This document shows positions 21,711-25,166 of a stretch of 64,000 nt of DNA, one piece after another. The notes below the pieces were generated by a model. It was not told where the DNA came from, made no database searches, and was given only the letters and a program-made list of their open reading frames with translations. Both the position numbers and the translations under genes were made by a program. How positions within the stretch are numbered: position 1 is the first letter of the stretch; each line of letters opens with the position of its first letter. Source of the stretch: Endomicrobium sp. (GTDB lineage Bacteria > Elusimicrobiota > Endomicrobiia > Endomicrobiales > Endomicrobiaceae); NCBI GenBank assembly GCA_031273925.1, contig JAISQW010000004.1, positions 1-64,000 of the forward strand. Reading direction: 5' to 3'.

Positions 21711-21754
21711 AAACCCGCAGTTGGTGTGGGTAATTATTAAAAGGAGAAGGAAAA

Positions 21755-21931
21755 ATGAAGAAGTTTGTTGTGTTTTTATTACTAGCTGTGTTTGTTGGAT
21801 TTTCATTTATGGCTTGTGGTAACAAAAAGAAAAATGAAGAAGTTACTACTCAAGAGTCTTCTGAAGTCGATACAACAGTAACTCCAGAAGGGTCAACTGA
21901 GAATGTTTCTTCGACTACAACTAATAATTAA
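21755..21931 (+). CDS. Small secreted lipoprotein, 58 aa (absent from the ORF track)
   Basis: Read directly: MKKFVVFLLLAVFVGFSFMACGNKKKNEEVTTQESSEVDTTVTPEGSTENVSSTTTNN*; AGGAGAAGG RBS before ATG; lipobox F-M-A-C after hydrophobic signal. Confidence 0.8.
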   Translation: MKKFVVFLLLAVFVGFSFMACGNKKKNEEVTTQESSEVDTTVTPEGSTENVSSTTTNN

Positions 21932-21974
21932 TTTTTGGAATCACAAGAACGTTGTTTTAAGGCACAATCTTTAT

Positions 21975-22104: not shown

Positions 22105-22707
22105 ATGATAAAAGTTCCTGAAGTAAAAGTTAGATTTAGTGACTTACTTACAAGATTAGGTTATTTGAAGTTTAGAACAAGAGTTAATAAAAGAATAGTT
22201 ATTTTAATGGAAGATCTTTTGAATTTTGCACAAAAACTGATTAGACCCAAGGTGATGATTGCTTTTGAAAATATAGAACTAACAAAAAATGAAATATTTT
22301 TTGAAAATGGATATAAAATTAAAAGTAGTGATGTCGCAGCAATGTTGAAAAATAGTTTTAAAGCATATGGTATTACTGCAACTATAGGAAATATGCTTGA
22401 ATATAGAAGAAAGAAATTTTCACAAAATGGTAATATTTTTAATGCTTTAATATTGGATACAATAGGTTCCATTGCTGTAGAAGAAACTATAAAATTAGTT
22501 AATTTACAGATTAAAAATTATGAAAAAAAAAATAATAACATTCTTACAAAAAGGTATTCACCAGGTTATGGTGATTGGACGCTTGAATTTAATAAACATT
22601 TATTAGATTGGATTGGTGCGAATTGTATAGGTATTGAATTGAATGAATGTTATCAAATGAGTCCGGAAAAATCTATTTCAGCTTTAATAGGTGTAGAAAA
22701 ATTGTAA
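22105..22707 (+). CDS. Stand-alone cobalamin-dependent methionine synthase activation domain protein
   Basis: RYSPGYGDWTLEFNKHLLDWIGANCIGIELNECYQMSPEKSISALIG resembles the MetH activation (SAM-binding) domain; directly upstream of metH. Confidence 0.85.
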   Translation: MIKVPEVKVRFSDLLTRLGYLKFRTRVNKRIVILMEDLLNFAQKLIRPKVMIAFENIELTKNEIFFENGYKIKSSDVAAMLKNSFKAYGITATIGNMLEYRRKKFSQNGNIFNALILDTIGSIAVEETIKLVNLQIKNYEKKNNNILTKRYSPGYGDWTLEFNKHLLDWIGANCIGIELNECYQMSPEKSISALIGVEKL

Positions 22708-22732: not shown

Positions 22733-25166
22733 ATGATAAGTAAAAAGACATTTTTAGATAAATTAAAAAATAAAGTTTTAATAATGGATGGTGCTTTTGG
22801 CACAGAAATTCAAAAAAAAAACTATCTTAACGATGTTATAATTCAAGAAGAATTAAATATCAAATTTCCTGAAAGGATAACAGAAATTTATTCTTCATAT
22901 ATAAATGCAGGATCTGACATAATTCTTGCAAATACTTTTGGAGCAAATTATATAAAATTGAAAAAGCATAAACTTTTAGATAAAGCTGATAACATAGTAA
23001 GATTGGGGATAGATTTAATAAGAAAAGTTTCTAATAATGTTATTGTTGCAGGTGATATATCTTCAATAGGAGAATATATAGAACCCTTAGGATCATTATC
23101 TTTTAATGAAGTTTATAATGCTTATGCGTTCCAAGCTTCTTTATTACAAAAATATAATGCTGACATTGTAGTTATTGAAACTATAACTGAAATAAAAGAA
23201 TGCAAAGCAGCGATTCTTGCAACAAGAGAAAATTTTTATGGTCCAATAGTTGTTCAAATGACATTTTTAAAAGATGGTGTCACTGTTACAGGTACGGATT
23301 TAAAAAGTTTTATAACAATGGCAGAAAGTTTGAGAGTTGATGTAATTGGATTAAATTGTTCTATAGGATCTCAAGACTCAGCTAATCTTATAAAAGTTTT
23401 ATGTGATAATACAAATCTTCCAATATCTTTTAAACCAAATGCTGGAATACCATCATTAATTAATCGTGAAACTTATTTTCCCTGAAACAAAAGAAGAATT
23501 TTTACAAGCAAGTTTAAAAGCATATTTTCATGGTGTTAATATGTTTGGAGGTTGTTGCGGAACAACTCCAGAATTTATAAAACTTCTTTCTAATAAATTA
23601 AGGAATAAACCGCCTATATTACGTAAAACTGTGGATAGGTATTATCTTTCTACAAGAACGAAAACTATTGACATAAATAAGCTTAGTAAACCTATATTTA
23701 TTGGTGAGAGAATAAATCCAACTAATAAAAAAAAATTACAAGAAGAATTATTTAAGTATAATTTATCTTCTGTAAAGGAAGAAGCTCGCTCACAAGTACA
23801 ATCTGGAGCTAGTATTTTAGATGTTAATGTTAGCATACATGATGTCAATGAAGAAAAACTCCTCATAAATGCTGTAAATCAAATACAAGAGATAGTTTCT
23901 GTGCCTTTGTGTATAGATTCAAGTAATTTTTGTGCCATGGAACAAGCAGTAAAAAATTGTACAGGAAGACCTATTATAAATTCTGTAAATGGCGAATATG
24001 AAAGACTTGATTTGATACTTCCAATAGCAAAAAAATATGGCACAGTTTTAATAGCTTTGACAAGTAATGATAAAGGAATTCCAAAGACAATGGAAGACCG
24101 ATTAGATATCGCAGCAAAAATTTTAGATTATTCATCTCATTTTGGAATAGAAAGAAAAAATATTATTTTTGATTATCTTGTTCTTGCAGTCAGTTCATCA
24201 CCTGATCAAGTGCAAGAGACATTAAAAGCAATGAAAAAATCAAAAATATTATATCCAGAATGTAAGCTTGTTTTGGGTATATCAAATATTTCTTTTGGAT
24301 TACCTTCACGTCAAACAATAAATTCTACTTTTTTAAAAATGGCTATAAGCGCTGGCCTTGATTTCGCAATTGTTAATCCTCATGAAAATTGGAATATAGA
24401 TAATCCTATTGCTAGAAATTTATTAAACAATAAAGATAAAGGTGCGGTTAAATATATTGAAACATTTGCATCCTTCAAAGAATGTAAATCAAGAACTAGT
24501 ACGAAAAAAATTACATTAAATCAACAACTTTATTATTCCATTTTAAATGGAGATAAAGAATCTGTATCTAACGTTTTGGACAGAATTATAAAATATATTA
24601 ATATCAATGACTTATTTAAAGTAGTGAATGACAATGTTCTTAAAGCATTAAGTGTTGTTGGAGAGAAATTTGCATCTAAAAATTTCTTTTTGCCACAAAT
24701 AATTATGTCAGCTCAAGCTGCTCAAAAAGCTTTTGTTACACTTAAATCTGTTCTTAGTAATAAAAGCAAAGAGAAAAAATATATGGTTGAAAACAAAATT
24801 ATAATGGCTACTGTCAAAGGTGATATGCATGATATAGGGAAAAATATAGTTGGAATAGTATTAGAGAGTTATGGTTTTAAAGTTATAGATATGGGTATAA
24901 ATGTTGATTCTCGATCAATAATAAAAAAAGCTGAAGAAATTAATCCTATTGCAATAGGACTTTCTGCTCTTATGACAACTACAATGTTAGAAATGGAAAA
25001 AATTATAGCATTGAAAAATGCAAATCATATTCCAACAAAGGTGATTGTTGGTGGTGCAGCCTTAACAAAAAAGTTTGCTGATGATATAGGAGCAGATGCT
25101 TATGCTAAAGATGCCATTGATGCAGCACTTTGTATTAATGAATTCGTAAAAATTAAAAATATGTAA
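22733..25166 (+). pseudogene. metH: Cobalamin-dependent methionine synthase (homocysteine, pterin, cap and B12 domains) interrupted by a frameshift: ORF A 22733-23485, ORF B 23466-25166
   Basis: ORF A KVLIMDGAFGTEIQK...GLNCSIG; ORF B GGCCGTTPEF, GERINPTNKK, VKGDMHDIGKNIV. The frames join seamlessly as NRETYFP/ETKEEFLQ by +1 at CCC-TGA (23480-23485). Status (pseudogene or recoded) undetermined. Confidence 0.75.

Follow-up and report, generated by a model that had tools for sequence, protein, structure and literature searches.

The gene for the vitamin-B12-dependent methionine synthase, metH, is split into two open reading frames within the window, that is, the whole stretch of 64,000 nucleotides that was analysed (Table 1). 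The host assembly amounts to 535 kb in 5 contigs and is 80% complete. Among named relatives, the closest metH genes belong to Endomicrobium and Candidatus Endomicrobiellum MAGs from termite guts, and the host genome is that of an Endomicrobium/Endomicrobiellum-type termite-gut symbiont. ORF A matches the Pfam family S-methyl_trans (PF02574) over positions 1-242 (E 9.5e-48), and ORF B takes up the same family at positions 244-282 and continues with Pterin_bind, B12-binding_2 and B12-binding. At the end of ORF A, CCC occupies 23480-23482 and TGA 23483-23485; the letters at 23470-23489 are AACTTATTTTCCCTGAAACA, and the remainder of metH reads on in the next frame, up to 25166. An initial annotation of this DNA had described metH as split at TTT-CCC-TGA with no part of the enzyme missing across the halves. 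The split is correct in all sequence details that were checked (ORF coordinates, Pfam, alignment), and the completeness is borne out by the Pfam positions and by the alignment to intact relatives, in which the halves join with zero overlapping columns and zero loss. The GLNCS cysteine falls in ORF A and GGCCG in ORF B, as had been claimed.

Table 1. Features of the split metH locus and of the prfB site of the same genome
Feature	Position	Strand	Remarks
MetH activation-domain gene (MetH2-like)	22105..22707	+	intact, directly upstream of metH; PF02965 match partial, below Pfam's gathering cut-off
metH, whole split gene	22733-25166	+	
metH ORF A	22733..23485	+	250 aa, C-terminus ...LINRETYFP*, stops at CCC-TGA; most of the homocysteine S-methyltransferase barrel including the GLNCS cysteine
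A10 run in ORF A, in frame	22812..22821	+	more usual place for an indel, yet the break lies elsewhere (about 660 nt downstream)
metH ORF B	23466..25166	+	566 aa, open from GTG 23466; rest of the homocysteine barrel with GGCC
Frame break TTT-CCC-TGA, next base A (UGAA)	23477..23485	+	+1 base relative to all congeners
prfB +1 frameshift site	L145:865-880 (G000:C2 ~148.7 kb)		

Since ORF B is open ahead of the ORF A stop, one might think of a split enzyme made from two separate polypeptides. However, no ribosome-binding site was seen at the first ORF B starts, which leaves ORF B without a good start of its own, the presumed zinc ligands are separated by a cut within the barrel, and no relative is split here; we regard such an enzyme as highly improbable.

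The activation-domain gene finds full-length matches at about 49-59% identity in Endomicrobium relatives and is intact in many of them; the presence of MetH together with a separate MetH2 has been described for Endomicrobium (PMC8809381). Further upstream, between rodA and the activation gene, the window holds a short lipoprotein-like ORF (about 21752-21935; MKKFVVFLLLAVFVGFSFMACGNKKKNEE...) with an AAGGAG site, and a C6/G6 inverted repeat lies 3' of it.

Relatives, constraint and partner genes

Among 35 genomes of the same genus, PF02574 is matched in 21 and finds no match in 14, several of which are 94-99% complete; metH is thus dispensable in the genus. The frame is unbroken at the site in all 21 metH-bearing congeners and in seven order-level relatives. 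In the congeners the site mostly reads TTT-CCT-GAA or an equivalent F-P-E, with a few F-L-E and one F-S-G, and the order-level relatives carry F-P-G. The comparison of the site in relatives, which had been called for, was thereby made at genus and order level, and the break is absent from all of these relatives. Because 21/21 metH-bearing congeners pass the site without a change of frame and the window has an additional base, the break is a singleton, and the same additional base relative to every congener rules out a chance juxtaposition of two ORFs. In the gene tree, the metH under study groups with that of the nearest relative, G022 (support 0.993), on a branch of ordinary length (0.21).

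Both halves of the gene have retained their conserved positions. Indeed, of the columns that are invariant in the other congeners, 2/86 differ in half A of the gene and 5/176 in its half B, and the intact congener genes deviate at 0-5 of 84-89 and 0-9 of 144-180, respectively; at conserved positions, metH is no more eroded than in intact congeners. In parallel, frame breaks were scanned for in 223 kb of the genome (the window plus sampled stretches), 151.5 kb of which are matched by homologous genes of the relatives; the references were limited to non-overlapping genes, which removed nearly all false stops arising from shadow ORFs. The metH break is the sole frame break in this conserved coding sequence. 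Two residual in-frame stops were unconvincing as lesions, one (C3:1213) being an apparent shadow ORF and the other lying at the extreme end of a primase-like gene. As a separate observation from the same genome, only 243 of the 12,710 bases of contig G000:C5 (12.7 kb; L078) matched reference genes of relatives at >40% identity.

Neither the frame scan nor the invariant-column comparison found further lesions or relaxed constraint in metH. The partner genes are likewise intact: besides the activation-domain gene, metF, whose product MTHFR supplies the methyl donor of MetH, is present in a single frame. Taken together, the sole frame break, the retention of conserved positions and the intact metF and activation genes reject a long-decayed or established pseudogene, and the earlier proposal that any lesion is young is supported. 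Any decay must be very young, as no second lesion is present, conserved sites are kept and metF is intact.

The two genes metH and metF go together within the genus. Of 23 genomes, the present one included, 12 have both, 2 have metH only, 9 have neither and metF never occurs without metH (Fisher p=7e-5), and metF is absent from 9/9 metH-less congeners tested, which suggests that the two may have been lost jointly across the genus. A second metH or a metE was not found in the assembled genome (80% complete), nor was a PLP-family enzyme of Cys/Met metabolism. Since neither metE nor such an enzyme was found in the assembly, MetH would mainly serve homocysteine recycling. The lack of the PLP-family enzyme, the reduced genome and the metH-less congeners also lend themselves to a plain null pseudogene, in which the insertion would be real, slippage negligible and metH on its way to being lost as in those congeners. 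This is unlikely in our judgement, as the retained conserved sites, the still intact metF and the missing second lesion speak against it.

By contrast, the same signs of constraint suit a different possibility, namely that the extra base arose as an error of sequencing, assembly or strain consensus, with metH unbroken in the living symbiont. In the genus the break is a singleton, both halves are fully constrained, and metF and the activation gene are intact; moreover, singletons in a survey of frame transitions were put down to indel mutations or sequencing errors (PMC3711429). On the other hand, the gene contains an A9 run in frame besides the A10 run, and the break sits instead at a run of C2/C3, where a homopolymer error is unlikely. 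Nor is the assembly riddled with errors, as no other break occurs in about 151 kb of conserved coding sequence, and a published study of Endomicrobia MAGs used Illumina sequencing (PMC11257099), a platform that may not be that of the present assembly. We consider an error a serious possibility, albeit not the one that we favour.

The homopolymers at the break are T4 and C3 only, with none of at least 8 nucleotides, so transcriptional slippage of the kind reported to restore the frame in insect endosymbionts, at poly(A) runs, is not expected here and is rejected. The AT-rich, reduced genome and the A10 run in metH would be in its favour, but slippage at a run so far upstream would shift the frame of the barrel portion in between, and this explanation is scarcely credible.

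Programmed recoding and the possible capacity of the host for slippage

The host itself offers a positive control for a maintained +1 site. In its prfB the canonical RF2 signal is present, AAGGAG-ATCT-CTT-TGA with a 4-nt spacer, after which RF2 resumes in the +1 frame (AAGGAGATCTCTTTGA). The metH break shares with such sites a shift-prone codon directly before the stop (CCC-TGA, 23480-23485). However, no Shine-Dalgarno core lies within 30 nt upstream, in agreement with what had been noted before, no unusual stimulatory structure was found downstream (z -0.07 and -0.70), and the CCC-TGA break is conserved in 0/21 metH-bearing congeners. When one-base duplications were simulated in the metH of intact relatives, about 1% placed CCC, CUU, UCC or CCU before UGA at the lesion and 0.2% gave CCC-UGA, a statistic that was devised after seeing the site and was not used to raise the claim for recoding. 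Thus, although UUU-CCC-UGA-A is genuinely shift-prone, such a site seldom arises by duplication and the host uses +1 recoding in prfB, programmed and maintained frameshifting that regulates MetH is rejected for want of conservation, Shine-Dalgarno sequence and downstream structure, and we hold it to be very unlikely. The initial annotation had left a pseudogene, an error and +1 recoding side by side; of these, a recent lesion of one base, or else an error in the consensus, is supported and programmed recoding is not.

Unprogrammed slippage is a different matter, and the view that CCC-UGA is mechanistically prone to slip has firm backing in the literature (PMC5009743, PMC3617221, PMC7022156). 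The break reads UUU-CCC-UGA-A, with Phe ahead of Pro as in the pheL type (PMC5009743, PMC5373646). According to a review (PMC5009743), the +1 shift at the CCC_UGA of E. coli pheL depends in part on the penultimate Phe and reaches about 15% in K-12, against 1.9% in Salmonella; the CCC_UGA of the Listeria phage tsh gene also slips measurably (PMC5009743). In enterobacteria, the UGG tRNA slips +1 at CCC more often once the GGG tRNA-Pro (proL) is lost (PMC3617221; PMC7022156), and in E. coli a +1 insertion in rpoB is tolerated via slippage at CCC, improved by proL mutations (PMC7022156).

In the present genome, 42 tRNA genes were found, among them Pro UGG and Pro CGG, and a tRNA-Pro(GGG) was not found among these 42, a gene that in an 80%-complete genome could sit in a gap. 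The set is otherwise nearly complete, with Ile-GAT and Ala-TGC also missing, possibly together with an rRNA operon. The GGG tRNA is present in seven congeners (G004, G005, G014, G016, G017, G020 and G025); in the sampled parts of G022 no Pro tRNA of any kind was found, which makes this nearest relative uninformative on GGG. The slippery context, known from other systems, and the tRNA-Pro(GGG) that was not found make a leaky rescue plausible.

Two features of the host disfavour a strong rescue. First, no match to a CmoB-family protein (PF08003) was found in the 80%-complete genome, where other U34 pathways are possible, and in a Salmonella proL mutant the UGG tRNA hardly slips any more once cmo5U is removed (PMC3617221). 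Second, the RF2 of the host reads RASGAGGQ and, by residue mapping, appears to be the efficient Ala246 form; with the RF2-B of E. coli, no extended products of pheL were observed (PMC5373646). In addition, the genome encodes TrmD, the enzyme for m1G37. This modification guards the reading frame.

CCC is a rare codon in this genome (42 of 63,623 codons), and among 198 ORFs only the one considered here terminates in CCC-TGA. An avoidance of CCC as the result of selection against slippage is unconvincing, because other C-ending codons are rare too and CCC/(CCC+CCT) is 0.056, close to the 0.066 of G029.

Interpretation and comparison with known systems

The assembly carries an extra base in metH that is absent in all intact congeners, and the flanks and partner genes are intact. 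The leading reading, which we put forward tentatively, is one recent +1-nt insertion, unprogrammed and perhaps weakly rescued by slippage, in a metH that is functional and constrained apart from it; its main rival is a consensus error, and under both metH lacks a designed recoding signal. According to the former, a single nucleotide would have been inserted recently into the metH of an Endomicrobium-type symbiont and would be real in the living genome. While UGA awaits RF2, the peptidyl-tRNA-Pro(UGG) may slip from CCC to CCU, and a minor amount of full-length MetH would result, so that the gene would at present be weakened rather than silent. That unprogrammed leaky slippage gives some whole MetH is plausible on these grounds. 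A further version, in which the loss of tRNA-Pro(GGG) would act as a standing +1 suppressor at CCC and the insertion would persist in metH as an intrinsically suppressed frameshift because slippage provides sufficient full-length enzyme, is rather doubtful.

If the base is real and slippage works, this metH would represent a wild counterpart of the E. coli rpoB case, with the loss of a tRNA gene making frameshift mutations tolerable, and might point to one way in which reduced genomes could hold genes that look broken and still function. Otherwise the case is that of a common singleton frameshift, and this metH would have to be flagged in annotations as a possible pseudogene or error.

Among known systems, the CUU-UGA site of prfB in the same genome likewise relies on a P-site codon that re-pairs one base forward directly before UGA, but it is conserved widely and accompanied at a fixed distance by a Shine-Dalgarno-like stimulator; the metH site lacks both the conservation and the stimulator. 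The pheL gene of E. coli and the tsh gene of the Listeria phages PSA, A118 and A500 share with metH the CCC_UGA, the UGAA stop context and the penultimate Phe, which is important in pheL; the putative shift in metH would compensate for a lesion, whereas those shifts are incidental or double the products. The insect endosymbionts with poly(A) slippage (reviewed in PMC5009743) likewise keep frameshifted genes in AT-rich reduced genomes, whereas the metH break has no long homopolymer. In E. coli rpoB (Huseby et al. 2020, PMC7022156), a +1 insertion also lies at CCC (CCC-AGG), is relieved by tRNA-Pro slippage and is strengthened in its rescue by loss of the GGG tRNA (proL). There, the rescue was proven by mass spectrometry and the pause is set by a rare Arg codon, whereas in metH the rescue is inferred and the pause would be set by a UGA stop.
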